A stretch of 35,991 bases of DNA from Chrysophaeum taylorii. Lineage: Eukaryota; Sar; Pelagophyceae; Pelagomonadales; Pelagomonadaceae. Positions within the stretch are counted from its first letter, which is position 1. Every line of letters begins with the position of its first letter. The notes beneath the pieces were generated by a model that was not told the DNA's origin, made no database searches, and saw nothing but the letters and a program-made list of their open reading frames with translations. The stretch covers positions 1-35,991 of the forward strand of contig JAQMWT010000692.1 in assembly GCA_029834535.1 (NCBI GenBank), written 5' to 3'. The position numbers were made by a program, and so were the translations under genes. Below are positions 2,876-33,359 of the stretch, piece after piece.

Positions 2876-2887
2876 CTAAATCGGGGG

Positions 2888-3596: not shown

Positions 3597-3684
3597 GTAA
3601 GTTACACCTGGTCACTAAGTTCACATAGCCCCAATTTGCAACCCCAGTAAGTTCACCTGGTCCCAGTAAGTTCACCTACAATGC

Positions 3685-4272: not shown

Positions 4273-4341
4273 TACCCTGAATCGGGGAACAAACAGTCGA
4301 CATTTAAAGACAAACAAACAGACCCCCTCATAGCAGTCGAC

Positions 4342-5293: not shown

Positions 5294-5299
5294 CTTACC

Positions 5300-12009: not shown

Positions 12010-12337
12010 CTGTAGTGGTTTTCTCAGATACCCGCCCCTCTTGGCCGGGCCAGAGGCCTCAACAGCCCTTTCCCCCAACCCGAACCGCGGGTGAAACCAC
12101 CACACGCCCGATCTCAGCGTAACGCTCACGCCATCACGAAAATCGGACAATCAAAGGTAATAGCAAGAAGACAGCAAGAAAGCAATAAAGATGCCTGGTA
12201 CATTGGGTTCAGTGGAAGCGCAGGTGAGGATGCATAGATGACACCCCCCCCCATAATTGCAAGGTCAGTACCAGAGCAACAATCAGGGTAAGTCAGGTGG
12301 CAGGCAGGCAAGTGGGGGGAATGGGCGTTACTGCCAC
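12010..12337. repeat. ~330-bp repeat, copy A (Harbinger-associated)
   Basis: It starts GTAGTGGTTTTCTCAGATAC and ends GGGCGTTACTGCCAC. It matches 13168-13503 along its length, and part of it matches the inverted segment 18725-18922. The C-terminal edge of the transposase gene (GCGCTTCCACTGAACCC on the opposite strand) lies inside it, so it is the 3' flank of the Harbinger-like element. No independent gene is supported. Confidence 0.75.
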
Positions 12338-13126: not shown

Positions 13127-13195
13127 TCGATAGTCCGGGAGTTGGACTATCGATTCCCGTTTCTGAGACCACTGTAGTGGTTTTCTCAGATACCC
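13127..13195. repeat. Back-to-back hairpins at element junction
   Basis: ATCGATAGTCC and GGACTATCGAT form an 11-bp stem (about 13127-13156). Directly after it TCTGAGACCACTGTAGTGG continues into TTTTCTCAG, a second imperfect palindrome. The same arrangement is inverted at 18915-18977. It probably marks abutting transposon termini. Confidence 0.6.
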
Positions 13196-13503
13196 GCCCC
13201 TCTTGGCCGGGCCAGAGGCCTCAACAACCCTTTCTCCCAACCCGAACCGCGGGTGAAACCACCACACGCCCGATCTCAGCGTAACACTCACGCCATCACG
13301 AAAATCGGACAATCAAATGAGGGTAATAGCAAGAAGACAGCAAGAAAGCAATACAAATGCCTGGTGCATTGGGTTCGGTGGAAGCGCAGGTGAGGATGTC
13401 GAGATGACGCCCCCCCAATAATTGCAAGGTCAGTACCAGAGCAACAATCAGGGTAAGTCAGGTGGCAGGCCGGCAAGTGGGTGGAATGGGCGTTACTGCC
13501 ACA
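13168..13503. repeat. ~330-bp repeat, copy B
   Basis: Second copy of 12010-12337, with a few small differences and without the SINE insertion. It lies on the 3' side of the transposase relic at 13580-14005. Confidence 0.75.
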
Positions 13504-15562: not shown

Positions 15563-15572
15563 TTATTAGTTC

Positions 15573-15940
15573 CCTTACCCTGATCGCCGACTGCGGTTGC
15601 GATGGAGGACGATGCCTCATGAATCCTGAGCCTCGCGAGGGCATCCGCCCTCCCGTCGTAGGATGGCACCTATTCGCCTCCCGGGCGGGCCGGTTGGCAG
15701 CCGGAACGTTCGCAGTGGGACGGGGTATGGCCGGGGGGCGAAGACGGAAGGTTATCGACGAGTTGGTTGTCAGTCACATCGCGGTCTCCTCGTCGCATGG
15801 CGACAAGCTTGATGGTCACTCTCCGCCGACCGACCTTTCGGCGCTCCTCGTCTACAGGCCCGCGATTCCGGACTGGCTCCTGTCGGTCCGGCCTGGCTCC
15901 CATGCTCAGGAGAGTTCTGAAGTTAGTTAGTTTTAGTTAG
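15573..15940 (+). mobile_element. SINE-like element, full-length, with 10-bp target-site duplication
   Basis: The reference copy of the family, about 368 bp, beginning CCTTACCCTGATCGCC. Near its end GGCTCCCATGCTCAGGAG folds into a short hairpin. The tail is GTTAGTTAGTTTTAGTTAG. TTATTAGTTC at 15563-15572 and 15941-15950 is a perfect 10-bp duplication. It matches the minus-strand copy at 3231-3596 and the truncated copies at 12338-12422 and about 17193-17231. A 124-residue frame runs through it but is not conserved as protein in the other copy. The tail and duplication fit mobilisation by a LINE. Confidence 0.85.
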
Positions 15941-15949
15941 TTATTAGTT

Positions 15950-16625
15950 CGATGTTTATGACAGACTGCAGCGAACGATCCCGGTTCGTCATCTCGCGCC
16001 TTTAGCGGATGACACTGTTGCAGATGTCTATCAAACGCACATGCCGAGAAGAGCCGCCTGACTTGCCCTCCATAAAGCCCTTGATGAGGACCGACACGGC
16101 CTCGCAGAAGTGCTTCGCGCGATAGCTGGTTCTTTGTCGGCAAGAAGGTTCGGAGCAGGTGTGCCTTTTAGCACACGTGACGGTATTGTCTACTTGCACA
16201 TCACAACGAGCAGCACGCACATAAAAGCTGCATCTTGCATATAGCACTTGAACGACAGCGCTGTCGCGCTGTAGACCATGTTGTACACGCCGTCAACTTG
16301 CCGCCCGTGACGAACATCATCTGCTGCAAGTCGGCCTCGAGAACACACATGCTGAACTTGGCATCTTGGTTAGATCGAGTTAAGTGGAGCCTCGTATTTG
16401 CGCGCTCTGAGCTGCGACAGCGTACTCGGCGATCTCTCATAGTCGTTTGCCTTCGTCTGGGCACGCGACTTCTTGTTTTCTTTGTCGGCGTCGTGGTCAA
16501 CCGACGTCGGCGTGTTACCACCACGCTCCCGCTCGACCTGAGCGACGAAACCCGCATCGATACCGTGTTCGTTTCGAAGTCGAAGGACGATCCGGAGTCA
16601 CAGCGCGACTTGCAGAACCGCTGAA
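15950..16625 (-). pseudogene. Unknown coding relic inside TIR transposon (left half)
   Basis: Minus-strand frames give, in order, GIDAGFVAQVERERGGNTPT, then HDADKENKKSRAQTKANDYE, SPSTLSQLRARKYEAPLNS, KFSMCVLEADLQQMMFVTGG, DGVYNMVYSATALSFKCYMQ and, near 16010-16110, KHFCEAVSVLIKGFMEGKSG. The changes of frame show several indels. No transposase family is recognised. Reading order matches 14741-15130, so together they are probably the remains of the gene of the 14090-16776 transposon. Confidence 0.4.
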
Positions 16626-16782
16626 AGCTTGATCACGGAGGCCCTTGTTTTGTTAGTGAACCTTTATGTTTGCTCTCCAACAGTGCAAGTTTAGTCACCC
16701 AAGATACGGATTGACCAAACTTAAGTGACCAAACTTGTTGAGGGTTTACGGTGACCAAACATATATGGTGGTTGGACTAACT

Positions 16783-16952
16783 TAGGGTCCGAGGATGGAT
16801 GACGTCATTCACTTTATCCCCTAACACCCCCCCCAAACCTCCGCCTAAATCTAACAATATATGCCGCGTTTGGCTAAATTGACGTTCAGCCTACAATGCT
16901 GTAAAAGCCCAAATGTAGGTTTCTCGGACAATTATTAGGGTCGGATAAGAAA
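16783..16952. repeat. 170-bp dispersed repeat, copy 1
   Basis: Starts TAGGGTCCGAGGATGGATGA and ends TTAGGGTCGGATAAGAAA. The direct copy at 33360-33529 has the same length and differs at only a few positions. The start AGGGTCCGA and the end AGGGTCGGA resemble each other. It looks like the end of a larger mobile element. Confidence 0.85.
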
Positions 16953-17192
16953 ACGAGACTAGCCCGCGCCGCAACGACGGGTCCTACAACGCGTGGGCTT
17001 TTCCTTTTTTTGCGTGAGGGGACGAAAGGATGCCGACTTCACTATGGGGACTAGTTCCATCGCGACGATCTCGCGGCGTGGCGGCACATACTGCTTGAGT
17101 ACAAATGAACATAGCTCAGCGATCCGTTGAGTATGTCTTAGTACAAACTGAAACATAGTTAACGGCTCGTACGAACTTTCTTATCCGACCCT
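16937..17192. mobile_element. Small TIR element (MITE-like), 16-bp inverted repeats
   Basis: AGGGTCGGATAAGAAA at 16937-16952 is perfectly inverted at 17177-17192 (TTTCTTATCCGACCCT). The 256-bp interval has no gene. The left TIR coincides with the end of the 170-bp repeat, and a third copy of the 16-mer ends the repeat at 33529. The true element may therefore be 16784-17192 with imperfect AGGGTC[CG]GA termini. No target-site duplication was found. Confidence 0.6.
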
Positions 17193-17231
17193 GCTAACTA
17201 ACTTCAGACCTCTCCCGAGCATGGGAGCTGG
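17193..17231 (-). mobile_element. Short 3' fragment of the SINE-like family
   Basis: CTAACTAACTTCAGACCTCT followed by CCCGAGCATGGGAG matches the last ~38 bp and tail of the family. No clear target-site duplication. Confidence 0.7.
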
Positions 17232-17239
17232 TGGTTAGA

Positions 17240-18272
17240 AACATGACTTCTTAACTACTAATCGACAGATGTTTGTCTGTTTGTCTGTCTGTTTGTCTGT
17301 CTGTCCCTCGATTTAGGGTAAGGATCAGGTAGGCGCGAGAGTAAGGATCAGGTAGGCGCGAGAGCCAGACAGTGATCCTCCAAGCCGTCTACGGCGACCT
17401 CGCAGACTATTTCCACGAGCCGCGGCGGCTCTTTCAGCGCGCCATTCTCACGCCCCGTCGAAACGATGTTGTCTATGCTGACAACGCGCGCATGACCGCG
17501 GCCTTTTTCCCGGAGACGAGGCGTCGGAGTTCTTTTCGGCTGACTAGGCTGGGTCGGAAGACGACGCCTCGCTCTTTACAGTAGAGTTTTCAACTCCCTG
17601 ACAACCAACGGGATGCTGACTTTGAGCGCGAGCGTGAAACCTCGACCGGTCGCACGGCCACTGCAACGGTACCTGATACATGATCGATCGTGTCGTTGTC
17701 ACCGAGGCTCCTCCAACCTGTATCCCTTAAGGCCCGCCTACGCCAAACGATCAACAAGAGCCAGGGCCAGACGCCCCGCGAGGTCGGCGTCCTCTTTCCC
17801 AAGCCCGTCTTCTGCCACGTCCAGCTCTACGTGGCTCTCTGTCGATCGGCATCCCCGAGGATATACTCATCTGGGTCGACGACTCCACCCTACCCCACAC
17901 GTGCTGCGCTATACCGATAAGCCCCCTCCCGGCGTCTACACGCGCACTATAAGTGAACTTACTGGGACCACGTGAACTTACTGGGGTTTGAGATTGGGAC
18001 TAGGTGAACTGAGTGACCAGGTGAAACTGGGACCAGGTGAACATACTCGGGTTTTTAGGGTAAAGGGTTTTTAGAGTAAACTCAAAGGCTGGCGGCGCGT
18101 GCGGATCAAAGCAGCTTAGATTGGCGGAGGCGAGAGCGACGAGCTCAAAGGAGTTGGTGTGAGCTAGGTAAACTTACTGACCAGGTGAACTTATATGAAA
18201 CTTACTGGGACCAGGTGAACTTACTGGGGTTAGAGATTGGGAGTAGGTGAACTTACTGGCCTGCACTTGTTT
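17240..18272 (+). mobile_element. Fourth Helitron-derived unit (inverted relative to the array)
   Basis: Runs from ACTACTAATCGACAGATG and a GTTT/GTCT microsatellite, through a helicase block (17334-17945), to AGGTGAACTTACTGGGACC-type repeats ending GGCCTGCACTTGT at about 18272. Sequence after 18272 changes to the Harbinger-like element. It contains a 22-bp duplication of GTAAGGATCAGGTAGGCGCG at 17319 and 17341. Confidence 0.75.
17334..17945 (+). pseudogene. Helitron helicase C-terminal fragment, copy 4
   Basis: The plus strand reads LQAVYGDLADYF, then HEPRRLFQRAILTPRRNDVV and YADNARMTAAFFP in one frame (17372-17584). RLRQTINKSQGQT, REVGVLFPKPVFCHVQLYVA and LCRSASPRI follow in another (17690-17920). 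These are the final motifs of the Helitron Pif1-like helicase. It keeps motif VI as copy 3 does, and has the same missing ~70-residue block before it. Frameshifts and a stop at 17582-17584 break it. No Rep domain. Confidence 0.8.
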
Positions 18273-18348: not shown

Positions 18349-18723
18349 GTGTTTCAGCTGACCTCTCTCTCTCCCGTCCGACCAAGGACGAGGACGAGGA
18401 CGATATTCTTCGCTTCATCGTCTTCGGGGACATGGGCTACACCCGCTGCGACGTCATCCAGACCCCGTGGAAGGCCAAGCACCTCACGCCCATCCAGAAG
18501 CAGTACAACGACGTCCACAAGCCCTCGCGCGTCGCGGTGGAATGGTCTTTCGGTGGGTGGTCTCGCATTCGCGTACTGCGACTTCAAGAAGCAGATGATC
18601 ACCGTCAAGCGGCCCGTTGCACTCTACTGCAAGGCCGCCGTCATCCTCAAGAACTGCCATAGCTGCTTCTACGGCAACCAGGCCGCCATTGCATTCGGAT
18701 GCTCCGTCCCGCGCTTCCACTGA
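18349..18723 (+). pseudogene. PIF/Harbinger-like DDE transposase, C-terminal part (copy C)
   Basis: In the frame through 18387-18560 the sequence reads PTKDEDEDDILRFIVFGDMG, then YTRCDVIQTPWKAKHLTP, IQKQYNDVHKPSRVAVEWSF and G. GDMGY holds the second catalytic Asp and VEWSFG the catalytic Glu of the DDE_Tnp_4 type. After a shift near 18555 another frame gives FAYCDFKKQMITVKRPVALY, then CKAAVILKNCHSCFYGNQAA and IAFGCSVP. The normal end DLxEYLCVNEG, seen in copy B, is deleted and replaced by RFH-stop. The N-terminal third with the first Asp is absent. Copies B and C begin at the same point in an A-rich, AAGGAAATTGG-like stretch and are inverted relative to each other. Confidence 0.8.
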
Positions 18724-18724
18724 A

Positions 18725-19110
18725 CCCAATGTACCAGGAATTTGTATTGCTTTCTTGTTGTCTTCTTGCTATTATTACCCTCATTTGATTGTCCGATTTT
18801 CGTGATGACGTGAGTGGTTACGCTGAGATCGGGCGTGTGGTGGTTTCACCCGCGGTTCGGGTTGGGAGAAAGGGTTGTTGAGGCCCCTGGTCCGGCCAAG
18901 AGGGGCGGGTGTCTGAGAAACCACTACAGTGGTCTCAGAAACGGGAATCGATAGTCCAACTCCCGGACTATCGATCTCATGTTTTTCGGCGGCGAGTCGG
19001 TTCGCAACGGTCGAGTGAGTGCGAAGCCGACGCATTTGTGGGTGAAGATCCAGGGGATCACGGGCACCGCCGCGGGGTTCATTTTACGTGATTCGGATCG
19101 AACGGGGAGC
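18725..19110. repeat. Harbinger-associated 3' flank, inverted copy
   Basis: 18725-18922 is the inverted counterpart of the ~330-bp repeats at 12010 and 13168. 18923-19095 corresponds to 13000-13150, including the ATCGATAGTCC hairpin. No gene. Confidence 0.7.
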
Positions 19111-19395: not shown

Positions 19396-20499
19396 ATGAC
19401 AGAGAGGCCAATGACAGAACGACCGCAGTGGTTTCGGGACGCACAGGAGCGTCTGCAACGATTCAGTGCAGGGACTCCACTTGCGTCTATTGGAAGAACA
19501 CCGTTCATTACGCCCTTTCAACGGCCGGAAGCCGAGGAAAGCGGCATCAGAAGAGAGGCAAGATCGTCTGATAGCCTCGACAACCCCCCAAGCGTGATCA
19601 TCCTTCCGGATCCACGCGCCGGCGAAGGGGGAGCTACGGTTGCGCCAGACGCAACTTCAAGACCGGGTGAGCCGACGTTCCCGTACGCACGACCCTACGA
19701 ACGTGCGATGAATACTACGGAGTCATCTCGAGCGGAACCCGGACCGTCTACGGTGATGCGTGGACCAGAGCAGAGTGCACCTCCTAGGTCACCATCCGCG
19801 AATACGAGAGCGACTGATTTTCGCGTGGATACCTATCCCGAGATTCTGCAGACCATTAATGAACGATTCGAGATGTACCAGTCGCAGATCGAGCAAGTCA
19901 TACGTGAAATTGAGCGCACCCGCCGCGACGCGCAACAACAACGCTCAGAAGTGGAGCGGCAGCGGATCGACAACGATCGACTTCGACGAATGGTGGAGGA
20001 ATCCACGCGGGCGCATGCTCGAGAGGCACGGCCAACCTCTCCGGATGCTACGCGTGTTACGCCCGAAGAAGATAACGCTGTATCGGCACTGACCGATGAT
20101 CAGCCGCCGCGAAGTCGACCGGAGCCTACCCCGAAGCATCATACTGACCCCGGTTCAGCGCGTCCTCGTGACGAAGAAGAGCTACTTCAGATCAAGAAAG
20201 GAGTTGCTAGTATGACTCGTATCACGTTTTCGCCTCTCACCGGGCAAATCACCAAGACCCAGGATGAGGTTAACGCGTGGTTTATGCAGTTGCAGCGTAA
20301 GATGGAAGCCAAGATCCTGCCGCATGAAGGATGTGTCAACATGCAGCTAGAAGCCACTGAGGACGTTTGCCATGCGACTCTCACGGCTGCTGTTGACGAG
20401 AATGAAGTCGAGGAGGATGTCTTAAGTGACAGACCTCCTGAGCCACCTCCAGATGAAGAAGTGAAAAAAAACACCAGAAATGGAGATGGAGGCGACTGA
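19396..20499 (+). CDS. Gag-like protein of the gypsy/DNMT element
   Basis: A 367-residue open frame directly 5' of the methyltransferase/Pol frame, overlapping it by about 20 bp in a +1-related frame, as Gag and Pol often do. Residues about 1-130 are polar and Pro/Arg-rich. Residues about 148-205 form a long charged helix (EILQTINERFEMYQSQIEQV, then IREIERTRRDAQQQRSEVER), a probable coiled coil. The C-terminus is acidic (VDENEVEEDVLSDRPPEPPP). No CCHC zinc knuckle and no D[ST]G protease motif is visible. Two further Met codons follow the first closely, so the exact start is uncertain. Function as structural Gag is inferred from position, length and coiled-coil character, not from a recognised domain. 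Confidence 0.65.
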   Translation: MTERPMTERPQWFRDAQERLQRFSAGTPLASIGRTPFITPFQRPEAEESGIRREARSSDSLDNPPSVIILPDPRAGEGGATVAPDATSRPGEPTFPYARPYERAMNTTESSRAEPGPSTVMRGPEQSAPPRSPSANTRATDFRVDTYPEILQTINERFEMYQSQIEQVIREIERTRRDAQQQRSEVERQRIDNDRLRRMVEESTRAHAREARPTSPDATRVTPEEDNAVSALTDDQPPRSRPEPTPKHHTDPGSARPRDEEELLQIKKGVASMTRITFSPLTGQITKTQDEVNAWFMQLQRKMEAKILPHEGCVNMQLEATEDVCHATLTAAVDENEVEEDVLSDRPPEPPPDEEVKKNTRNGDGGD

Positions 20500-22105
20500 T
20501 AAGGACCTGCTATCCAAGCATGCCTCCTTGGTTTGGATACCCATCACCTACACCTTTGTCGTCGTCTACTTTGCTGGCGCTGGAGGATCAACGTTGGGTA
20601 TCCGGCGATGCAATGAGCTATATGGCAGTTCATTTCGCATTGTCTTGGCTTCGGATGCTTGTCCTCAAGCCCGAGCCACCTTTGAGCTCAATTTTCCGAA
20701 GATTCCCTATGTTTTGCATGAGTTAGGGAAATCTCATCGTCGTACATACGACTTGGTGTTGTCGTATTTACATTCAGATTTTTGGAAGCATTCTTATTTT
20801 CACGCAAGTCCGCCGTGTATCTATGGGTCGACTGCCAATTTGCACTACAGGGACGCACGCAAGGGCGCTACTATTACTTCTTGGGTCCTGCGTCATTTCC
20901 GCAACGCACCTTATGTAATTGGACGATGGACGCTCGAGCAGGAACCATCAGTGATCCCTTTTGTGCATCACCAATTTTATGTGCCGCGCATTGTCGATTT
21001 TTATAGTATCACACCAGAATTGCTGTGCTCGCGCACGCGCCTACTTGCTTGCAATGTTCGCTTGGAACTGCCGTTATTATCGCGTGTACCACCGAATTTA
21101 CGGGACCGTTTTGGGCCAGCGTTGGGATTTACAGGTGGTCACCCGCTCATTATAGTGAACAGTTTCTCATCTACGCGCCCGGCTATCGGCCCTGCCTTCA
21201 CAGTGACGCGCAATAAGCTCCACCTAGGACCTCATTTCTCGAACACCCGTCCACTCACGTTGCAGATGCACCAGGAAATTATGACCGTTCCTGCTACGTG
21301 GCAATGGGGTGAGAAAGTTTCAGAGACAGCAGCTATGAAGATGCTTGGCAGTATGGTGCCACCCGCGACTATGACGCGGATCGCGCTAGCAGTGCACAAT
21401 TCGTTTGACCCTTCACTTCGAAATTTGGGTAAGTTGCGGAATATTGCGACGACTACGATAGCCCAACCCGATCACCATATTCTACGGTTTTCACCTTTTG
21501 CTGTCGAGTCGCGCATTCCAACGCTCGACCCTGCCACTCGAAGTGTGTCATGGATCTCGCCCGATGACCTCTACTCTCCTGCGAGTCCTGCACCATCAGC
21601 TGCTGCCACCACCACCCCGCCACCACCTTCGGTTACATCGCCTGGGACGGCTCAATCTTTTGCAGGGGGCACCGTCGCCACTGCTGTTATGCAGAGCAAC
21701 CAAGCCGGCAACCAGCCCTCCGCAACTGCTGAAGAAGAAGGCACCGCGAAAGAGCGACCTGCGTATTTCAATAAGTACGACGTTCCGTGGGCGGACGCGC
21801 CTCACGACGAACATGGTCAACCTTTACCGGTGATGCCTCCTCATTTAGCGGATCAGGAGAGCATGCAGGTCATCCCTCCGACCGTCGCGCAGGTCGAAGA
21901 GGTGATGACTGAATTGGGTATTACAGAGCATCCTGCTTTAGATGACGACGAGAAGCTGATGATGAAGCATCTAATCTCGTATTCGTGGGCATTTTTCGAT
22001 GATGTGATGAGACCTGTTGATTCACCTGAAGTGACGATCCGGGTCACTCCCTCGGCCGCACCGGCCACGTCTTTCCGCAAAATACCGCCTGACGTTAAGA
22101 AGAGA
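20480..22105 (+). CDS. C5 cytosine DNA methyltransferase fused to gypsy Pol
   Basis: Would transfer methyl groups from S-adenosylmethionine to cytosine C5. Motifs occur in family order. Motif I FAGAGGSTLG (residues 31-40) binds the cofactor. Motif II is ASDACPQARATFELNFP (58-74). Motif IV ASPPCIYGS contains the catalytic Cys113 (codon 20816-20818). The motif VI position reads LEQEP (152-156), where ENV is usual. Motif VIII is SRTRLL (184-189). Motif IX is TRPLTLQMHQEIMTVP (256-271). Motif X is MLGSMVPP (288-295). The domain ends near residue 305, and the ~290-residue length suits a compact single-domain DNMT. A Pro/Ala/Thr-rich linker (about 370-430) then leads in the same frame to sequence preceding RT (PATSFRKIPPDVKK near 22095). 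The frame continues to 22249 but is out of register with RT after about 22105. It lies where a gypsy protease would normally be. Confidence 0.9.
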
Positions 22106-22930
22106 ACCCGACTCCCATCAAACTCTTGCCGTATCGGCTGTCGAAAGAAAAGATTGAGTGTTTGCGGATGCAGATTGAAGAATGGACCCGCGACGGAGTT
22201 ATTCGTCCTGCGAATGCTCCATGGGGTTCCCTATTTTGATGTTGCCTAAGAAAGGTGCTGCGCCTGGTACTTCCAATGCTTACAGGGCAGCTGTCGACCT
22301 ACGGCGCCTCAACACATTGCTCAAGGATAATAGCTGGCCGAGTGTGAGCATGGCTGACGCGTTGATATTTCTCGTCGACAAGTTATGTCGTTCCAGTTTG
22401 GATATTCGTTCGGGCTATCACAATTTACGATTGTTGCTAGATACACAAGATGTGGTCACCATCACTAGTCCTCTGGAAACGTACAGCTACATGCGTCTAG
22501 CTTTGGGAGTCAAACCAGCCGGAAGTTTGTTCTGTAGGCAGTTGAACACTGACTTGTCGAAATGGCTATATCGTGATCTTGTGGCATATATCGACGATAT
22601 TCTCGCCGGTCACACAGATACAAAGAATCACTTGCAGTGGCTTGTGCAGGTTATTCCCCATCTCGCCTTGAAAGGGTACAGCGCCAAGATCAAAAAGATT
22701 CATTTTATGTAAGAAGTCATTGAGTTTTTGGGTCATTTATCCACCCCGAACGGACTTCTTCCATCACCAAGGTCTTTAGAAGCCATCAGACACATGCCAA
22801 TTCCTGGCACTTTGTCGGATGCTGACCCTAAGAAGCAAGTGCGATCTTTCCTTGGAATGGGGAGCTTTTGCCGGCGTTATTTAAGGAATTTTGCGAAAGT
22901 TGCAGAGCCATTAAGACAACTGACGTTGCC
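22090..22930 (+). pseudogene. Gypsy reverse transcriptase
   Basis: Ty3/gypsy RT spread over three frames. IKLLPYRLSKEKIECLRMQI then EEWTRDGVIRPANAPWGSLF lies in one frame (about 22105-22226). MLPKKGAAPG, then YRAAVDLRRLNTLLKDN, LDIRSGYHNLRLL, LALGVKPAGSLFCRQLN and the catalytic AYIDDILAGH (YIDD codons 22587-22598) lie in the frame to 22712. An in-frame TAA at 22710-22712 interrupts KKIHFM-stop-EVIEFLGHLS. RSFLGMGSFCRRYLRNFAKV and the thumb/connection follow. The break pattern means this copy does not make full-length RT, although the active site is preserved. Confidence 0.9.
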
Positions 22931-23470
22931 GGATGTGAAATTCAAGTGGACGAAAGAGTGTCAGGAAGCTTGGGATGCCATCATCGAGGCTATTGTCACT
23001 TCGAAGGGTGTCTACCATCCTGATTACTCGTTGCCTTTTTACATTCGAGCTGATGCTTCCGCGCATGGGCTGGGTGCTTACCTATTTCAAAAGGTACCAG
23101 TCGTTGACGACGATGGAAGAGAAAGAATAGAAGAGAGAGTTATTGAGTACTGGAGTCGAACCGTGCCTAAGTCGATGAGGAAGTATGATCCTCGGCGCTT
23201 GGAACTCCTCGCAGTACTCTCCGCTCTTGAAAATTTCCGATTTTATATCGAAGGTCATCAGACGAAATTAGAGACGGATCATCGTAATTTAACGTTTCTT
23301 CGGGATTCGAATCATACGTCTGGACAGTTAGCACGATGGGCTATGCGGCTTGCTGCGTTCGACCGGGAGCTCGGATACAAGCCTGGAAATTCCCCTGGCA
23401 TGCGCATCCCGGATTGTCTGTCGCGCAACCCTATCGACAAATTGATCGATAAAGACGAAGACGGGGAGCC
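22930..23470 (+). CDS. Gypsy RNase H domain
   Basis: Continues in frame from the RT connection (open from 22728 to 23981). FYIRADASAHGLGAYLFQ gives the first catalytic Asp, RRLELLAVLSALENFRFYI the Glu and LETDHRNLTFLR the second Asp. ARWAMRLAAFDRELGYKPG and IPDCLSRNP then close the domain in the way typical of Ty3/gypsy RNase H. It removes the RNA template during reverse transcription. The domain is intact. About 23470-23860 is an acidic linker (AEDEITLDEIAKEQAEDD) leading to integrase. Confidence 0.9.
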
Positions 23471-23859
23471 GATCAATGAAGCTCTTTTGTTTTTCCAAGA
23501 AATCCCCACCGATGTACCGGGCACAGCTTGTTTTACCTTCTCTTCGGCGACGATGCCTATACCGACGGACAGCGGACCCACCGCAGCTATGGCAGCAGCT
23601 AGTACGCGACAGAACGTACAACCGCCTCAATTCTCGTACGAGTCTGAGCCAGTTGACTCCGTCGAACGTCTCCCTTTTTCGGATCAAGCGGAGGATGAGA
23701 TCACTCTCGATGAGATAGCGAAAGAACAAGCTGAAGATGACACATGCAAGCGCATCAGACGAAATCTCGATTCTGAACAGAAAGATCAAGACGAGCAGTC
23801 ATCCGTACCTTATGAAGTTGATAATGAAGTTGATAACGTGTTGTATAAGGTCGATGATT

Positions 23860-24746
23860 CGGATTCTCAACGTCTTATTGTGGTCCCTCAGTCTACGCGA
23901 AAGTGTGTAATCGCCATGCATCACCGAGGATTGTTCGGAGGCCATGTAGGACGAGACTCCACAGCGAATCAAATCTTATAACGTTATTGGTGGCCAAACT
24001 TCTCATCGTCAGTTAATGAGTTCGTCAATGCCTGCGTTAGTTGCCAGAAGATTCGATCCACCATGCCTAGGCGTCATGGCTTGCTCTGTCAACCGAATCG
24101 CGTCGGAGATTGCTATGTCCTAGGTATGGATCTGATTGGACCTCTGCGAGGCGCTGACCTGTACACGCACATACTCGCAACGTACGATGCAGTGTCGCAT
24201 TTCTTGAAATTGGCTCTGATCAACAAAAAACATGACTATTCAATTTTGAACGCGTTTGTGGACAAGATTTTACTTGAGGGATGTCTCCCACGGTGCATAG
24301 TCACGGATAATGGAAATGAGTTCGCGAACAGGTTATTTCGCACGTTTGTTCGTCAATTCAACGTACGGTATCGTACTACCATCCCGCATCACCCTCAGAG
24401 TAACCACACTGAGCGTGTCAACCGATTTATCAAAGCCTTCTTGCGAGCTGCGATCGATGAACAGCGTCAGCCAGATTGGTCGAATTTCCTCCCATATGTA
24501 TCATTCATGTACAATAGGATGTACATTCCGGGAACGAAGATTTCACCTTTCATTATGCGTACTGGCAAGCAACCCCTGTTACCACCCGATTACAATCTTT
24601 TGAGTGAACAGCGTGATCTACCGCAATCACGTCATCAGATTTTGGTGGACTTCAAGAACAAGTTTGAATTTATAGTCGACTCGTTACACGAGCTCACCAG
24701 AAAGCACAGGAGAGCCAAAAACTCGACTATGATGCCCACCAATTGA
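23860..24746 (+). pseudogene. Gypsy integrase: zinc-binding and catalytic core
   Basis: Inserts the cDNA into the host genome. N-terminal HHCC-type domain: AMHHRGLFGGHVGRDSTANQ, an in-frame TAA at 23979-23981, then RYWWPNFSSSVNEFVNACVS and CQK. Catalytic core: GMDLIGPLRG (Asp at 24128-24130), IVTDNGNEFANRLF (Asp at 24306-24308) and HHPQSNHTERVNRF (Glu at 24411-24413). Thirty-four residues separate the second Asp from the Glu, one fewer than the usual 35. YVSFMYNRMYIPGTKISPF and RTGKQPLLPPDYN follow, as in other gypsy integrases. The frame closes at 24744-24746, where a frameshift joins the C-terminal domain. Confidence 0.9.
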
Positions 24747-25260
24747 CATCCAGTTTGCCCCAGGTGATTATGTTCGGCGTTTCGTGCCAAAGACGCGCCA
24801 CAAGCTACGGCCCATTTGGCGCGGGCCTTACATAGTTACCAGAAAGATCTCTCCCGTCGTTTACGAAATTCAGGACGTCAACGACGATGATGCTGAGTCG
24901 GTTGTAGTATCTGTACAACAAATTGTGCCTTTGAAAGTGCCAACCATCGACACTTCTTCAGCCCCTCGGCATTTACCTTCAGACCGCGACAGTTTCAAAC
25001 ATGGTAAGTTCATGATTTTCAGGGTTAAAGGACGATCCAACGCGTGGAAGAAGCGTATCTACGTTGCCGAAGTCTATGAAGAATACGATCACGACAATGA
25101 TACTCCAGAGAGCTACACTATTGTGTGTGCGACACTTGAACATTTCACACCTATCTCTACACGAGGGTTTTCTCTCCGTAATACGGCTTTCCCTCATTCC
25201 TTTTTTCCTCCCTTACCCTTCCGCAATTACTTATTCATGACTATGAAGAATACAGTCTGA
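24747..25260 (+). CDS. Gypsy integrase C-terminal domain and tail
   Basis: FAPGDYVRRFVPKTRHKLRP then IWRGPYIVTRKISPVVYEIQ is the SH3-like C-terminal integrase segment of Ty3/gypsy elements (GD.V......KL.P.W.GPY.V). It lies in a different frame from the core; the shift is near 24735. There is no chromodomain signature. The frame then runs to a stop at 25258-25260 through RVKGRSNAWKKRIYVAEVYE and a hydrophobic end, which is unassigned. Confidence 0.75.
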
Positions 25261-25553
25261 AGCTCTCTTCCAACATGGAGTAGGCCTCCAGGTGCGTACC
25301 GTCAGGTACGGGGTTTTCTGTTTAATTAACAGAGGCTTCGTTCCTCGTTGTCAGTGTAAACGCTTCTATGGGACCTAATGTCCTTAAGGAGTTGGGGCTT
25401 AAATCCCTACCTTGTGTAGTAGCATGTGGCAAGCGGAATGGTCTGTACACGCCTAAGACTGCACGCAGTCTCTACCATGTACCCGGAGAGGGTCAAATCT
25501 CTCCAGGTTATGGGCCCAGATGCGTAGGTGTGTCAGCCCAACTGTGTTGTACG

Positions 25554-25560
25554 TATAAAT
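25554..25560 (+). promoter_or_regulatory. TATA box candidate
   Basis: TATAAAT in an AT-rich non-coding context 429 bp before the copia Gag ATG. Confidence 0.4.
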
Positions 25561-25716
25561 GGAGTGATCAATTTACGCCTGATCACGAGTACAATGCGAC
25601 AATGTGTTTGGCGATGGTCTACTGTACATATTTTTTATGTGACGGTATATGCCCACCAGTTAAATTGGTTTTTGACCGAGTTGTGTCGGTCACTGGTCAT
25701 ATTCACTCGCATAGCT

Positions 25717-25728
25717 AATAAAAATAAA
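25717..25728 (+). terminator. Polyadenylation signal candidates
   Basis: Two overlapping AATAAA hexamers about 160 bp downstream of the TATA candidate, an arrangement typical of R regions in LTRs. Confidence 0.4.
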
Positions 25729-25988
25729 ATTTTTCCTATACAAGCCGCGGAAACTTGTACGGGTTTTTCCTTCCATTCCCCAACAAAAGACTGACTGCTC
25801 GAGAATTAATCCGTTCTTCAGTCTCAAGTCATCCTGTTTAAATAGCATGCTGATTTGTTTGGTCTTGTAAATAAGCCCACGTTTAAAATAGCGTACTGTA
25901 CATAGAACCCGCACTCGAGAAACCCTTCATTCTTATGTGTCGAACATGTCTATCAATCCTACAACCTATTTCTTAATAGGTCACAGTC

Positions 25989-27067
25989 ATGTCAAAACAA
26001 AAACCAATATCGACTACGGATATCTACAAACAAGAACAAATCCTCGTTGATAAAATTAACGCAGGATTGCGTTTCCAAGACAACTCAACCAAGGTGAGCT
26101 TGCAAATTGAGGTACTTCGCAGGCATATGACAAGTCCATATGTGGACGCGTTATTCTGCTTCGATTCATATGAAGCTTACACCCGGAATGTTCCGGAATA
26201 TAATCAACATCTTGAACAAGAAGTTGATATCATCTTCGCTCAATGGAAAGCTGAACAAGTAAACGATTTAAACTTACCTGATGAAGATGCCCTGCCTGAT
26301 CATTTTAAAACTTGGCATGTCAATTCATCACATCAACTAACAGTTGATGTCCGTAACAATCTCTCGAACGACTTTATTACCAAGAGCCCTATAATCTCGT
26401 TCGTCCCGAATTAAATGAGGATGTTAAATGTGTCCTCGATCTATTAGATACCCAACTCCCTAGATCAATTGTGTATGATTCTTCTCTAACTAACATATTC
26501 TTCACAGGTCTCTCTAATACCGACTGGATCAAACACTGCGAAACATATGTTGGTTTCTTGTACACATTTTTTGATCTGGAATCACAAGACAAACCAGCAC
26601 TCGCTATGTGGCCTCAATTAAAGAATATATATGCACTTACTGCACATCCTAATAAACTACGTGCAGTAATGCTTTTAGCTCACCATTACTATGAGACAGT
26701 GTCTTGTACAGATGTCACTGAGCTTAAATCTCCGTTTTATCGAATGTCTTTAAATGTTAATTGGTATGCCCATATATTCGTCGAACAACTCCTTGCTTTC
26801 CAATCTCAGGCAAAGCAATTAAATAATGATGAAGCACCAATCCAATTTAACAACTCCATAATCACTCTTAAAGCTCACGAGGAGACCTACTGTCTATATG
26901 CCAATCCCTCGGATCACGAGCGCTATTCTCAATCTTTATTGGAATGGTGTAAACTCTACGAGACACGCTCTGGGAACAACTCGAGTCACGATCCTGAATT
27001 GCTAAAGCTAGTTGATCCTAACGATGTTCGTCCGTTATTTGGAGTTCTTGTTAAATATATACAATGA
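25989..27067 (+). pseudogene. Copia Gag-like region
   Basis: Starts at the ATG at 25989 with MSKQKPISTTDIYKQEQILV. That frame ends at 26414. After a shift, the protein continues from about 26390 in another frame: DVKCVLDLLDTQLPRSIVYD, TDWIKHCETYVGFLYTFFDL and HYYETVSCTDVTELKSPFY, to a stop at 27065-27067. The helical, Trp/Tyr/Leu-rich character, the size and the position before protease fit a capsid-type Gag. No zinc knuckle was seen. Identity is inferred from position. Confidence 0.55.
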
Positions 27068-28739
27068 AACAAAGTTCTCCTCTAACCGACGCTTAGATAA
27101 GCCCGCTTCCTGGATCCCTTACATCCCTGGTACTACCGCTACCAAGCCTCCTAAGGTATTATTGATGGATACTATTCATCTATCCCACGACTCTCGTAAC
27201 AACGCTCTACTACCGCTACTGCTAGCCTGGCTAGCTGGACAGTCTGTTTTCAACGCTCGTAAGCTTCGTAATGCAAAAGATAAAGCATCGACAATTTTAC
27301 CTCGTGACACGTCGTACTATCGTCCACCTTCAAATTATAACGTCAAAGGTACCAGCTTCGATCGTCCTGTCTACTCACCCTCCTCTAACCGTAATGCACG
27401 CTCTAATATGTCTCTTATGGACCGGGCTACTTATCAAGTTGATCGTCTTCGCCACCTGTTTGGTAAATTACAGGAAGCGAATCCCAACCCTTCTACCGAC
27501 TCTAAAATGGTACAGGAGGAAATGAAAAGCTTACTGAGTACCCTCTGGACAACCGCTTCTCAAGCTTCGACACAGTCCTTAGATCCTGACGAAGCCACCC
27601 AAGTTCATCTCTACTTATCTCGAGTTGATACTATGTCCAATACCATATCGAACCTCTTAGAAGCCGATAAGGAATCTCATGTTTCAGAAGAAAAGTATCA
27701 AACTGAAACATCTGCTCCTGAAGCGTCCCCCAGTGATGCGGAGCAGAGGGGGACTGCTGATACAGAGAAAATGTTCCACACTTTTCTGTCCATTAAAGAT
27801 GATGAAATCGATAACATCCCTCAGCCGCTATTGCAGCACATAAATGCTAAAGCTCAGAATGCTATCGTTCGTCGTCAAGCTCGGGAAACTTCCTCGCACT
27901 CTGAGCTCCCCAATAATCTACCCAATGAAGATAATGAAGATGGCACAGATCCCCCTGTGTTGCTACCAAAATTAAACACTGGTTTTACACTCGTCGTTGT
28001 GCCTTCCGAACAAACGCAAAGTTTCATGACACAGTACGTGTTTGGTCAAAGCTCAACACATGCCTGTTATGCAACAATGCTTAAACTGTACAACGAGTAC
28101 AATTTGCCGCTAATGACTACGCCAGGATATGCTGACACATGTGCTTCTCAACATGTAATTAACTTTAAACGTTATGCTGATCCTATCCACATCGTAAAGC
28201 TACCCGAGTCCTTATCACCTGCTATCCAGACTGCTACGGATACGCAGAGAATCACACATGCTATGATTATAAGGACCGTCATTCCCGCTCTCCCAAAGCA
28301 TCCAAATGTGGGATATGTAAAGCTAGACGTTGCGCTTTTTCTACCCAAGCAAAACGACCATAACGATCCCGATCTGCACATCATCAGTATGACTCAATGG
28401 GGAGAAGATAAACTTGGTATACATCTTTATGGAGTTGAATTTAAAGGACAATCATCTATCCAGAGTAAAATTGATGATAATGTCAAGATTACTTTGTTTA
28501 GACTCAGTAACCTGTTGCCAACTCTACCAATTTATTCGCTACAACAAGCAAAAGCGCGTAAAATGGAACTTCGCTCACTACAGTTCAGACTATGTGCTTT
28601 TAATGAACAACGCGAAATGCTTGAACTATATTCCACCCTCATGGAACGCGTAATTTACGTCCCATGGCTTAAAACCATCCTGGAGTCAATGCATTCGCAG
28701 CTGCCTTACATACGCAAGCATTTCCCACCTCCCGTATGA
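27012..28739 (+). CDS. Gag C-terminus plus copia aspartic protease
   Basis: A 575-residue open frame. The first ~250 residues are a polar, Ser/Asn/Pro-rich region (NARSNMSLMDRATYQVDRLR, EADKESHVSEEKYQTE), probably the Gag C-terminus or a spacer. The protease lies at about residues 365-480. GYADTCASQHVI corresponds to the usual W.LDSGAS.H active-site box (Asp codon 28134-28136), with Cys in place of the Gly. VGYVKLDVALFLPKQNDHND and LHIISMTQWGEDKLGIHLY match the later flap-to-end segment (..VLYVP...NLLSV..L...G). The protease would process the polyprotein. Substitution of the conserved Gly may impair it. The frame stops at TGA 28737-28739 and then continues unshifted as the DNMT region. Confidence 0.7.
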   Translation: MILTMFVRYLEFLLNIYNETKFSSNRRLDKPASWIPYIPGTTATKPPKVLLMDTIHLSHDSRNNALLPLLLAWLAGQSVFNARKLRNAKDKASTILPRDTSYYRPPSNYNVKGTSFDRPVYSPSSNRNARSNMSLMDRATYQVDRLRHLFGKLQEANPNPSTDSKMVQEEMKSLLSTLWTTASQASTQSLDPDEATQVHLYLSRVDTMSNTISNLLEADKESHVSEEKYQTETSAPEASPSDAEQRGTADTEKMFHTFLSIKDDEIDNIPQPLLQHINAKAQNAIVRRQARETSSHSELPNNLPNEDNEDGTDPPVLLPKLNTGFTLVVVPSEQTQSFMTQYVFGQSSTHACYATMLKLYNEYNLPLMTTPGYADTCASQHVINFKRYADPIHIVKLPESLSPAIQTATDTQRITHAMIIRTVIPALPKHPNVGYVKLDVALFLPKQNDHNDPDLHIISMTQWGEDKLGIHLYGVEFKGQSSIQSKIDDNVKITLFRLSNLLPTLPIYSLQQAKARKMELRSLQFRLCAFNEQREMLELYSTLMERVIYVPWLKTILESMHSQLPYIRKHFPPPV

Positions 28740-28740
28740 C

Positions 28741-30520
28741 GCAAGGTTACCACACGTTTGCTTCGCACAGTAACTTCATCTACTAGCCCACGAATACCTA
28801 CAGTAACTTTACTTTGCTCTGGGATGTCCACTCCTGCATTCTTGGCTTGCGCTTCTAATGACTTGCAAATCAACATCAACGTTAAAGTTCTTGTTGAGAG
28901 CGACGACAATATCACGCACATGCTACGAAGACGTTTTGGTAATTCCATCGAAGTTTTCCCATCCCTACCTAAGTTTTTAACATATCTCCATCGAGCATCG
29001 GACGTTGAACGTGCACGATATTACACTGACATAGTGGAACTGACATCAACATGCACAAATCACAACATAATCAATGGGAGATCCATTTCCACCTTCGAAC
29101 GCGATATGGATGATTCCTTGTTTCCAAGTGCTCTAAGTGTACTCGAGCTTTTAAAGCCGCTTGTTCTTTTCATGGAAATGACACCACCACACTCCGCATC
29201 GTATGAAGATCATATACGAGTTGCTAATCTCATCTTCTCAACGATGCACTATACGGTGGATATATGTGACCGATTTCCATGCTATCTATGTGGAGATTAT
29301 CAAGCCAGAGAAAGATGGATCCTCGTTGCACGTAAATATAACACCGGCCCTCTTGATCTGCTTTCATGGCCTAATAAACGAGTCACTTCCTTTCTGGACA
29401 TTGCAGACCACGCTAATTCCATCAGTCGCAAGTTAATAGTCGACGAACCTTGGACGCAGGTCTTTCCTGACATACCATTCGTGTCCACACCTAAAACCTA
29501 CAACATGTTCAGTCGTACAGGATCCGTGCGCTTAACTGTGACTGAGCTTGAAACCTTAACTATGCTGTTCCTTCGTCTGCACTCTAATAAAACAGTCGAA
29601 CATCCCAGTCAAGATGAAATGGAGGGCATTTCTAACTTTCGCCTGGGATTCTTGACTAATTCAAGAAAACCACTTGCTTGCATGAGATCCCCTATTGAAC
29701 TCAAAGCTTTCGTGCTCCTCTATAATATTATGGGACGATTATTCCCTAAATCCATCACATTACCTGTGTCCTTTCGTATTACAACTATCGAATCTAACCA
29801 ACCATCTCACAGGTTATTTTTAAATAAATCCTCTACTTCCTCCATCATTTACATCACCGGTGGAAGACATACAGGCGGAGACATAACAGTTTCTAACTCC
29901 TCTTCTAAATACCAGGCACATATAAATGCTTTTGGCGAAACCTATTTCCTAACACATGATGCCGGAATCGATAAGACTGCTTCTCTCGAACCTGTTACTG
30001 GTTTTCTTTGGCTTTGTCAAGCATACCATCATAATGAAAATCAAGACACGCGTCGTTTAGTACAAGCACTGGTCACCTATACTTCTCCTGTATTTCACGA
30101 TTCTTTTGTCTTCTACCCTCAGGAAAATCGTCTCGAATTTATCGATAAAATGTTTGCTTTAAGTGACATGCATTTGTCCCAAAGCAGATATCTGGGCTTT
30201 ATTACATCAAGCGATAGGAAGATGGGTGCCAAAGTTCATTCTATATACTCCTACTACCCATTCGTGGATTTGCTAATATGCTCGTGTACGATCCACGACT
30301 CGATCGCATCGACACTACTCAACTCGCGAATTGGCACGCGCCAATAACTTCACAGCGTACCAAATCAATTTTCTTTTGTCTTTGTCCCCGGACCTATGTT
30401 GTGATATCATCGCAAATGCCATTCCAGCTGGAACATATCATATAATTTATAAACATTTGTGTCAGCTTGTCTATGACTTGCGTAAATTAATGCTATCACC
30501 ATCGTTTGACCCTGATCATG
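28741..30520 (+). pseudogene. Diverged C5 DNA methyltransferase-like domain in copia Pol
   Basis: No family assignment fits better than DNMT, and the motif order matches. The motif I-like TVTLLCSGMSTPAFLA lies at residues 15-30 counted from the Met at 28758. Motif II-like is VKVLVESDD (42-50). Motif IV-like YTDIVELTSTCTNHN (89-103) has Cys99 (codon 29052-29054) where PPC is usual. Motif VI-like is LFMEMTPP, with Glu140 (29175-29177) in the ENV position. Motif VIII is DYQARERWILVAR (180-192). A large region (about 195-510) fits a target-recognition domain and contains SSIIYITGGRHTGGDITVS. Motif IX-like is TRELARANNFTAYQ, followed by motif X-like IIANAIPAGTYHIIY (30401-30450). Motifs IX-X lie one frame away from motifs I-VIII, so a frameshift occurred near 30325. 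The frame before 28758 is open back to the TGA at 28737. With TSTC instead of PPC, catalysis is doubtful. Confidence 0.75.
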
Positions 30521-30595
30521 CTTCTCTAACCAAAAACTATAGGTCAACCTTTTTCACATATATTCCCAGCATATCTCTTAGAAAAACAAATACCC

Positions 30596-31480
30596 CCTAT
30601 AACGCTAAGACAGCTCCATGAGAAGCATGCACCCTTCGATAAGAAAGTCCATGCCAGGGGCACCCTCGCATTTCGAGATGCGCAACAACGAGCTACCAAT
30701 TTTCACAACATTCACCATTCTAGTGATTCTCACGCTTTAAAGCAATTCAGGTTATTGCCAGTCCTGGACACCACCCATCTGACGTACCCTACCGTAAGTT
30801 CGGTGTGGATTGTACGATTCATAAGAAACGCTTTCCTCATCCACACCACCTTATCAACCAACCATCATTCGAAAAAAACTTTTTTCAACCTGGTGGCATG
30901 TGACGGTGGTTACGTATCTTTTCTCTCGGAATGGGGATCCTTTCGACATATCATTGTTTTCAAGTGTCTCATTTCTAAATTTCTGTTAGTGTACTTTTGT
31001 CGTAGCACTAACTCCAGCGAATTTTGTAACGCCCTTGAGTTTGTCCGCAATTTTTGCTCTACTTATGTTCATGTACAACTAAAACAAATCTATTGTGATT
31101 CCTTTAAACCCTATTTATCTCAGCATGTTACAACCCCCTTCCGTGTGGAACATGGTATTAATATGTCCGCGTTCCCCCCTTACTTACATGTCTTTAATCA
31201 TGAAGTCGAAGCCGCTGTTGGTCACATAGCCACTGCCGCGTCTACACGACTCCGGCATATGCTTAATGTATCCTATAAAGGTCACCCCCTAACAGATCCG
31301 GCACCACACTACCCGTGGGCTGTTATACATGCCATACAATCGTATAATCTCCTCCCTAATGTTTCCCTCGAACGTATTTACAATAAAGTCCTAAGCCCCC
31401 AACAAGTTTTGTTAAACCAATGTTATTTTCCCCAAACCTTCTGGTTCTGTTTGTTATCTGCATTTGGAACCTAACGAATT
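30596..31480 (+). pseudogene. Copia integrase
   Basis: N-terminal zinc-binding part: FHNIHHSSDSHALKQFRLLP, then, after a shift, DCTIHKKRFPHPHH. This matches the usual WH..LGH...L..L and C..C..GK..R.PF layout, with the first Cys lost. Core: ACDGGYVSFLSE (first Asp), KQIYCDSFKPYLSQ (second Asp), then HGINMSAFPPYLHVFNHEVE and AAVGHIATAASTRLRHML, with the Glu in the NHEVEA segment (usually NG.AER). The frame 30755-31474 carries most of the core. After about 31475 the sequence changes frame again. Assignment rests on the ordered D,D,E segments and the flanking phrase patterns. Confidence 0.75.
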
Positions 31481-32580
31481 TCATAAATATGAACCCCGAT
31501 GTCGTCCCCTACATCTACTTATGTGGTGCTAACGTTATAAACCCTTTAATAACACCCCATGTTAATCATTTAGCCGATGTTGTCCTTAATCCTGAAAACG
31601 GTCAAGTCCGTGTTTCCTCTAAACTGACTTTTCCTCATCTTATTTCTAAATCTCTCTGATTGTGAACAGCATCCACCTCCGCACCTTCACCCGACATTCC
31701 CTTCTCTGTTCACAGCACCCCCAATGATGCGGCGCAGAGGGGGAATGCTATGCCTACCGACACTGACCATGAGAGGGGGACTCCTTCTTCTCATTTCCAT
31801 GCTCCCGCTCCCGCATGTGCTCCAGCTGCTTCTGCACCCGCTACTTCCGCCACCACACATCTGACGTGTCTTCCAACACTTTGCCACTTTACCATCTTAT
31901 CGGTCTCTCTATTCCCAGGATGTACGTCTCACCCGTGGTCCTCATCACCCTCAGCCTCGTCGCAAAACCAATCTCAAGGATGTTCTTACTCGTATTGCCT
32001 CGCCTACTGTTGCCGCTTATAAACAAGCCGGTGGCTTGCCGACTTCAAGTATGACCTCTCCAAGCAGTACATAACCGTCTGCGACCCCACCTCCACTCCT
32101 TCATCTTGCTCATGGCATCCACTGGACGGCTATACCTCCAGATGGGGAATTTACACCATCACTTCATCGCCATATGCACCAGGCGCTTTCACAGTCCTCT
32201 TCAGTTATGTGTCATAGGAGCCATAGCCACCCATCGCCGGATGCTCATCGCGTTCACTTCTGCGACGACGTCAACCTTGCAGACTTTCACCTTCCTCAAG
32301 CTCTCGTCCATTAATTTCTGAACATGCTCGCGCCTTCAAGTTCCTCCCGCTCAATATGTTTATGCTTTGTTCACACCCCCTCCATTTTGGATCATAATGA
32401 CGCTTCTTATGGTGCCTCCGAGCCTCATCTCTCCGCCATCGAAGACTATATCACCGTGCAATCGCATTACATTGAGGCCACCTTGGTGATGCTCCTCTAC
32501 TGTTGTTGCTCGTCGAAGATCCCGATCACGCTCATCTGCACGATAATGTCGCTTCTTACGCAATCATCTGACGACGACTC
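31480..32580 (+). other. Integrase-RT linker region, heavily frameshifted
   Basis: About 1.1 kb of broken reading frame. Pieces include DVVPYIYLCGANVINPLIT, a Pro/Ala-rich HAPAPACAPAASAPATSAT near 31795-31855, and NLKDVLTRIASPTVAAYKQA near 31970-32030. This is the usual low-complexity stretch of copia Pol between integrase and RT. I see no separate gene. Confidence 0.55.
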
Positions 32581-33359
32581 ATGACCCCAGCACGGTTGGT
32601 TTGGACGAATACAAGATTCGAGCCAAAGCATAAAATTGATGAATATGCGTTGAACTGCCTCAAAGGTCTCTCAGACGCTGATCGCAAAGCTTATGTTGCT
32701 GCCATCTCCAAGGAGATTTTTGATATTGTTAAGTTTGGCTGCTTTAAACTAGCGCTGCCAATGGTCAACTCAAAGCCTATTGACACCCGCCTCGTCCTAC
32801 GTATAAAAACCAACGCTGCTGGTCAGTACATTAAACATAAAGCACGCCAGGTCCTACGAGGATTCTTAGCCTCTCTGGGCACCGATTTTTTCAACACATT
32901 CAGCCCTATGGCACAGCTCACTGGCATTCGTTGTGTTCTGGCGCTTGCAGCTCATCTGCGACTTCCCGTCTACCATGTCGACGTCCCTAACGCATTTGTT
33001 CAAGCTCCCATTGATTCTCAAGTCTATGTCAAAATGCCACAAGGCATTTACCTTCTCAATCCCGAAGATACTAAATACCAAGGCCGTCGTCTCCAAAGCT
33101 ACTTAAATCTCTCTGGATTACGTCAGAGCCCTGCCCTTTGGAATCAAACCATAAACGGCTTCTTTGATTCATTAGGCTATACACGATTTCGAACAGACAC
33201 ATGCATTTACGCTAAAGTCCAAGCAGTCCAAGCTGGCGCTACATTTCTAATTTGCAAGCTCTCAGTAGACGACGACGTCATTACTTGCACTTCGGAAACT
33301 ATACGTCGTGAGTTCCAGCAAGCCCTGACTTTTTGGAATACTCAGCCGACACCCTCGAG
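32581..33359 (+). pseudogene. Copia reverse transcriptase, truncated by insertion
   Basis: RVT_2-type RT in a single open frame. LSDADRKAYVAAISKEIFDI, then IKHKARQVLRGFLASLGTDF, TFSPMAQLTGIRCVLALAAH, LPVYHVDVPNAFVQAPIDSQ and VYVKMPQGIY, GLRQSPALWNQTINGFFDSL and the catalytic LSVDDDVITC (Asp-Asp-Asp codons 33268-33276; copia usually YVDD). The domain breaks off at FWNTQPTPSS, where the 170-bp repeat begins at 33360. The open frame continues to 33459, but that part is the inserted repeat. The C-terminal RT part and RNase H are absent from the window. Confidence 0.9.

Follow-up and report, generated by a model that had tools for sequence, protein, structure and literature searches.

We identified a divergent, predicted C5 cytosine DNA methyltransferase (DNMT) domain within the pol region of a Ty3/gypsy retrotransposon in the pelagophyte alga Chrysophaeum taylorii. 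The domain is encoded at positions 20510–21403 on the forward strand of contig JAQMWT010000692.1 (assembly GCA_029834535.1), the 35,991 nucleotides of which are referred to as the window. A first-pass annotation had placed a C5 DNMT domain at approximately 20480–21400, and a profile search confirmed this assignment. The open reading frame at 20465–22249 (+) matches the Pfam family PF00145 with an expectation value (E) of 1e-9 and 38.7 bits, and the trimmed domain (20510–21448) matches it with E = 1.4e-10 and 41.5 bits (cut-off 22).

In the general scheme of C5 methyltransferases, motif I reads FxGxGG, motif IV PPC, motif VI ENV, motif VIII RxR and motif X GN. The motifs FAGAGG (from 20570), PPC (20810–20818), SRTR (21029–21040) and GSMVPP (21347–21364) are present where they had been read in the first pass, and EQEP starts at 20936. 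Alignment A1 combines the window copy with two copies of subfamily B and with 17 close copies out of the 29 others that were fetched; all 20 members match PF00145. The catalytic cysteine, the glutamate of motif VI, both arginines of SRTR and the first proline of PPC are identical in 20 of 20 sequences and the second proline in 19 of 20, and motifs I (FxGxGG) and VIII (RxR) are the same in all 20; the 12 close copies outside A1 mostly contain stop codons, so that these counts are biased towards intact copies. Across A, B and D and the metagenomic protein P0001 described below, the invariant positions include the loop glycines, SP and C in motif IV, the motif VI glutamate and the R.R block. A search of the PDB with the gypsy DNMT profile yielded five matches up to E = 1, the best of which, DNMT2 and a 'cytosine-specific methyltransferase', are not significant (E 0.38–0.5); no chain named DNMT3 was among these five.

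The genome was searched over 70.8 Mb in 697 contigs (C numbers below), and since only the best candidates were scored, all copy counts are lower bounds. The DNMT domain of the window has at least 118 matches, which merge into 108 places (best 109 of 957 candidates scored). A more distant gypsy set with ~40% identity gave at least 125 matches (best 125 of 1038 scored), and P0001 as the query gave at least 124 (best 124 of 648 scored). The close and the distant sets do not overlap, and the union amounts to at least 276 gypsy DNMT places. At no fewer than 12 of them (C345, C225, C311, C540, C237, C505, C553, two on C5, C477, C16 and C30) DNMT and reverse transcriptase (RT) were listed with the same uninterrupted frame length, and the common frame was confirmed directly at C345, C311 and one of the C5 places. 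In all 29 fetched close copies (L010–L038) the DNMT runs on into RT-homologous DNA. Starting from the RT, a DNMT match lies 0.3–2.6 kb upstream on the same strand in at least 93 of 150 scored RT matches (best 150 of 891 candidates); by group, this holds for 69 of 103 close and 24 of 47 distant relatives among the matches listed. Other genomic copies with the DNMT joined to gypsy RT, as the first-pass annotation had anticipated, are therefore plentiful. Its statement that the DNMT frame leads into the RT is correct for the relatives on C345, C311 and C5 but not for the window copy, where the frame stops at 22249 and the RT domain RVT_1 (22179–22712) is read elsewhere. Judged from the sequences, the order in this gypsy family is gag, protease-like region, DNMT, RT, RNase H and integrase.

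The copy in the window is a broken Ty3/gypsy element, in which the gag/protease part has been lost and the RT is frame-shifted. Its features are the following (LTR, long terminal repeat):

18712–18929, + strand: 5' LTR with its own 5' end truncated; matches the 3' LTR of C421 at 91%
18930–18951, + strand: primer binding site of 22 nt, complementary to the 3' end of tRNA-Gly(GCC) plus CCA
19396–20499, + strand: remnant of the gag region, an open reading frame that starts upstream of the deletion and extends across it
20305–20315, + strand: junction of a 2.6-kb deletion that C345, C421 and C26 do not have
20465–22249, + strand: open frame with DNMT domain, proline-rich spacer and pre-RT segment
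20510–21403, + strand: predicted C5 cytosine methyltransferase domain (PF00145, E 1.4e-10 for 20510–21448; alignment A1)
22047–22096, + strand: 50-nt stretch that 28 of the 29 fetched close copies lack, L031 being unaligned at this point
22179–22712, + strand: reverse transcriptase, RVT_1, with YIDDI (PF00078, E 2.2e-9)
22713–23981, + strand: end of the RT, then RNase H and the beginning of the zinc-binding domain of the integrase, with stop codons on either side (PF17917, E 1.7e-25; PF17919, E 3.1e-23)
23982–25103, + strand: core of the integrase and its C-terminal part (PF17921, E 2.3e-6; PF22938, E 2.1e-7; PF00665, E 8.3e-7, which does not reach its cut-off)

The order RT, RNase H, integrase is that of Ty3/gypsy elements and includes the rve and H2C2 integrase domains. 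The RT is off the DNMT frame because the 50-nt stretch is present. The ~2.6 kb deleted from the window copy correspond in C345 to a weak gag match and a protease-like region. No significant Pfam match was obtained for the gag-region frame; the relative L040 has a weak Retrotrans_gag match (E 0.0034, below the cut-off) in the part that is deleted here. The deletion junction is crossed without a break by six of the 29 fetched close copies (L014, L019, L024, L025, L029 and L030), and the deleted form thus seems to have multiplied while its DNMT was kept.

The LTRs of the family are ~330 bp long and have the ends TGTGGCAG...CCACTACA. The LTR pair of C26 is 95.8% identical over 332 columns and that of C421 92.9% over 310 columns, with a partial 5' LTR; C311 shows a 177-bp LTR match (96.6%) spanning ~9.6 kb. 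In the window copy no 3' LTR was found at 25103, where the homology to its relatives stops, and no target-site duplication was seen by eye at the flanks of C26 or C311. Genes for the primer tRNA were sought elsewhere in the genome by pattern, which gave 10 places; four stretches were fetched and scanned, and the binding site pairs over its 22 nt with the 3' end plus CCA of the tRNA-Gly(GCC) genes located in this way. An 11-pair hairpin (ATCGATAGTCC/GGACTATCGAT, window 18947–18975) overlaps the 3' end of the primer binding site. A further locus, L063 (G000:C515:15980-16120), contains an LTR-like fragment followed by tRNA-Gly sequence continuing TCTGAGACCA, and looks as if the reverse-transcribed primer tRNA plus CCA had been integrated beside LTR sequence.

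A second kind of DNMT is found in Ty1/copia pol. A search of the genome with the PF00145 profile gave at least 57 matches (best 123 of 474 candidates scored), of which, comparing the lists by eye, 54 belong to copia elements, two to host genes and one (C216) is unassigned. In the copia pol of C96 and C314 the DNMT is followed by RVT_2 in one frame, and on C104 the two frames overlap. The copia DNMT domain has at least 134 matches in the genome (best 126 of 643 scored), many of them partial or with stops; PCQ and ENV are kept and motif I is degenerate. The gypsy and copia domains share the Pfam family PF00145 and no other detectable similarity. A common origin is unsupported (hhalign probability 0.15%, E 0.39, with shallow alignments; cross-scores below 0 bits), which by itself would not prove separate capture.

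In both kinds of element the DNMT is preceded by a retropepsin-like stretch, LDGMADSPYI ... LLLGARELRLLG in gypsy and SLIDGGAS in copia. These stretches were located in residues 620–760 of the L040 frame, in the L042 frame and at L045:3097–3948, with LDGMAD in gypsy and IDGGAS in copia at the place of the protease active-site motif, which is usually DTG or DSG. They have no Pfam protease match, and we read them as probable protease domains whose active-site motif has changed. In both LTR classes the DNMT would then sit between the protease and the enzyme that comes next.

The gypsy DNMT is under purifying selection that approaches the strength of that on the RT. In a comparison of C345 (subfamily A) with C311 (subfamily B), the ratio of nonsynonymous to synonymous substitution rates (dN/dS) is 0.06 for the DNMT (280 codons, 84% identity, proportion of synonymous differences pS 0.67). 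For the same pair we obtained 0.04 for the pre-RT/RT segment, 0.11 for the protease-like segment and 0.22–0.37 for three other segments as an internal control; these values are approximate because they come from a single pair of elements with dS near saturation. Pairs of copia DNMTs gave 0.11–0.12. The base composition of four element DNMTs differs from that of the host genes for DNMT2 and DNMT5, with TpG/CpA at 1.12–1.30 versus 0.59–0.79 and the ratio of observed to expected CpG at 1.07–1.24 versus 1.40–1.54. The shift has the direction of 5-methylcytosine deamination, yet it permits no conclusion, since the comparison includes just two host genes and the GC content differs as well.

The elements are part of the alga's genome, as contigs C345, C96 and C634 each carry light-harvesting protein matches together with element DNMT matches. 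Genome-wide there are 84 light-harvesting matches, with clusters on G000:C88, C539, C390, C309 and C533. As host enzymes, the alga has a DNMT2 on C634 (E 3.9e-39 against PDB-entry 1g55, named DNMT2) and a DNMT5-type protein with an SNF2 domain on C621. The latter matches PDB-entry 7r76 (E 2.4e-143; 'Rad8' in the depositors' naming), which we take to be the DNMT5 of Cryptococcus. DNMT5 and DNMT2 were the only host DNMTs recognised in a non-exhaustive search (best 123 of 474 candidates scored, the window's own domain missed), which does not establish the absence of DNMT1, DNMT3 or DNMT6. According to extracts of PMC9998398, pelagophytes have DNMT5a, and most stramenopiles apart from diatoms lack DNMT3. 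Cryptococcus DNMT5 is described in part of PMC9246332 as a maintenance enzyme with no de novo activity, its preference elsewhere being undetermined according to that text.

Three observations point to a role in the replication cycle: the DNMT lies beside the RT in Pol, selection on it is nearly as strong as on the RT, and it recurs in two LTR classes. Its packaging, catalytic activity, substrate and benefit we infer as follows. As part of Pol, the DNMT would be translated, and presumably packaged, together with RT and integrase. It would methylate cytosines in the double-stranded cDNA of the element or in the fresh insertion. The mark would then be perpetuated by the host DNMT5, a maintenance enzyme of the type known from Cryptococcus. 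New copies would in this way arrive pre-marked as self, and expression would be traded for a tolerated high copy number. The gypsy-borne DNMT of the first-pass interpretation is supported by our data; for the methylation of the element's own cDNA or new insertions, maintained by DNMT5, which that interpretation had likewise raised in its first step, we lean towards a positive answer with modest confidence. Such methylation may hide the element, protect its DNA or limit the damage to the host.

Several observations weigh against this proposal. Motif VI reads EQE or EQV where ENV is usual, and motif X reads GS where GN is usual. The structural model of the window domain, calculated with AlphaFold2 from its sequence plus P0001, is poor, with a predicted local distance difference test (pLDDT) score of 35; a Foldseek search with this model returned mostly dehydrogenases, none with E <= 0.001, and was discarded as uninformative. 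The copia spacer has a dN/dS of 0.10, so that the internal control does not single out the copia DNMT. In absolute terms, CpG is not depleted in the element DNMTs (observed/expected 1.07–1.24). No nearby DNMT was seen for 57 of the 150 RT matches among the matches listed, and these may either lack the domain or have a DNMT that falls outside the listing. Finally, the DNMT of the Klebsormidium nitens gypsy element (KnitGypsy) was without activity in yeast, a result deemed inconclusive in the same source (PMC5890265, in extract).

Instead of acting on their own DNA, the element DNMTs might act in trans and methylate de novo across the genome (silencing loci, rival elements, genes), with DNMT5 maintaining the marks. 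A copy number in the hundreds within 70.8 Mb would suit this idea, as would a recognised host set of DNMT5 and DNMT2 only and the reported lack of DNMT3 in most stramenopiles other than diatoms (PMC9998398, in extract). An enzyme embedded in Pol is, however, expected to stay in the particles, and the host set comes from the search that missed the window's own domain and left C216 unassigned (best 123 of 474); we therefore regard action in trans as doubtful. Equally tentative, and rather improbable in our view, is a scheme in which retrotransposons supply the alga's de novo methyltransferases, while the host keeps DNMT5 for maintenance (plus the tRNA-type DNMT2) and independently captured gypsy and copia DNMTs seed the marks. 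It depends on a host without DNMT1, DNMT3 and DNMT6, which the searches do not establish. If it were true, the methylome of the host would be parasite-made, and the convergent capture into two LTR superfamilies would reflect selection to pre-mark insertions.

The substitutions in motifs VI and X, the degenerate motif I of the copia version and the PSC in place of PPC in P0001 could also indicate that catalysis has been lost and that the domain serves as a structural module of Pol for binding nucleic acids or S-adenosylmethionine. Invariance of the cysteine, the glutamate, both arginines and the loop glycines across sequences only 34–40% identical to that of the window, together with a dN/dS close to that of the RT, makes this quite unlikely. 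A DNMT2-like action on RNA, e.g. on the primer tRNA or the genomic RNA of the element, is in our judgement very unlikely. It would agree with the presence of DNMT2 among the best, if weak, PDB matches of the gypsy profile (E 0.38), with the 5.8 bits that host DNMT2 scores against this profile, among whose matches DNMT5 is not listed, and with the identity of the primer, tRNA-Gly(GCC). This tRNA is a substrate of DNMT2 in animals; the usual target of the enzyme is position 38. The DNMT2 matches are, however, not significant, and the anticodon loops of four tRNA-Gly(GCC) sequences (L063 not included) read TTGCCAT with U rather than C at position 38, which in 4/4 loops rules against methylation of the primer at C38. 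That the whole arrangement is a chance similarity, an assembly chimera or a contamination is already contradicted and practically excluded: although the copy in the window is defective, with its RT shifted out of frame, and the source culture of C. taylorii also contained bacteria (PMC10366177, in extract), there are hundreds of separate DNMT places, three contigs (C345, C96, C634) with both element DNMT and light-harvesting matches, and a pattern of selection on the DNMT.

Retrotransposon-borne DNMTs as such are already known, from LINE (long interspersed nuclear element) and DIRS elements of Symbiodinium and from KnitGypsy; those of SymbioDIRS catalyze de novo CG methylation in yeast (PMC5890265, in extract). 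KnitGypsy-Dnmt3 is the closest parallel in build, as it also has a C5 methyltransferase inside a Ty3/gypsy Pol and under purifying selection. As far as it is described in that extract, it differs in being of Dnmt3 type, in a DIRS-like repeat arrangement and in having fewer copies than Symbiodinium, whereas the element studied here has direct-repeat LTRs (C26, C421), DNMT places in the hundreds and no DNMT3 match in the PDB up to E = 1. With SymbioDIRS-Dnmt3 and SymbioLINE-Dnmt it shares a very high copy number and the occurrence of DNMTs in unrelated retrotransposon classes of one genome (PMC5890265, same extract). In Symbiodinium, however, these are DIRS, with a tyrosine recombinase, and LINE elements, and here they are two LTR superfamilies, gypsy, with the rve and H2C2 domains of a DDE integrase, and copia. 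One sentence in part of PMC12344493 mentions DNMT3 in copia and DIRS elements, and the re-acquisition of 5-methylcytosine through foreign DNMTs is raised there as well. Our copia DNMT likewise resides in an LTR/copia element, but has no assigned type and combines a degenerate motif I with conserved PCQ and ENV. As far as the searched literature shows, the new aspects are the lineage, the unassigned DNMT types, the coexistence of gypsy and copia carriers and, for a genome of small size, the copy number.

DNA methylation is usually seen as a weapon of the host against transposons. Here, two LTR classes of one small genome carry methyltransferases, and silencing tags may come partly from the parasites themselves. 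C. taylorii joins the two published lineages as a third eukaryotic one; its genome is compact and the host has been cultured. It makes transposon self-methylation testable, and likewise the idea that transposons supply de novo methylation in a lineage reported to lack DNMT3.

In a database of 5.8 billion proteins, the gypsy DNMT profile found a single protein, P0001 (E 1.3e-22, 33% identity; best 7995 candidates scored), which stems from a metagenomic 2.6-kb contig of the Joint Genome Institute (JGI). No relatives were found there with the window frame (best 7997 candidates scored) or the copia DNMT profile (best 5307 scored). Searches of viral contigs and of bacterial and archaeal genomes with 2 to 6 short peptide patterns each revealed no relatives, and thus no viral or prokaryotic source of the DNMT by these patterns. 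Descent from the host enzymes is unsupported beyond the 5.8 bits of DNMT2 against the gypsy profile, in which DNMT5 does not appear.

The window as a whole is a nest of LTR elements. An AT-richer copia-like element (25104–33529) abuts the gypsy copy, with RVT_2 at 32581–33456 (E 3e-31) and similarity to copia integrase near 30902–31348; tblastn with three element DNMTs detected no DNMT in it. Repeats at 16783–16952 and 33360–33529 are 97% identical. Inverted LTR fragments of the window gypsy family (opposite-strand matches) are located at 12010–12337 and 13172–13503, and a copia RT remnant at 7219–8151 on the minus strand (RVT_2, E 2.5e-15). Positions 1744–5318 contain repeats ~1.0–1.4 kb apart that are up to 98% alike, part of which recurs inverted at 15571–18028.

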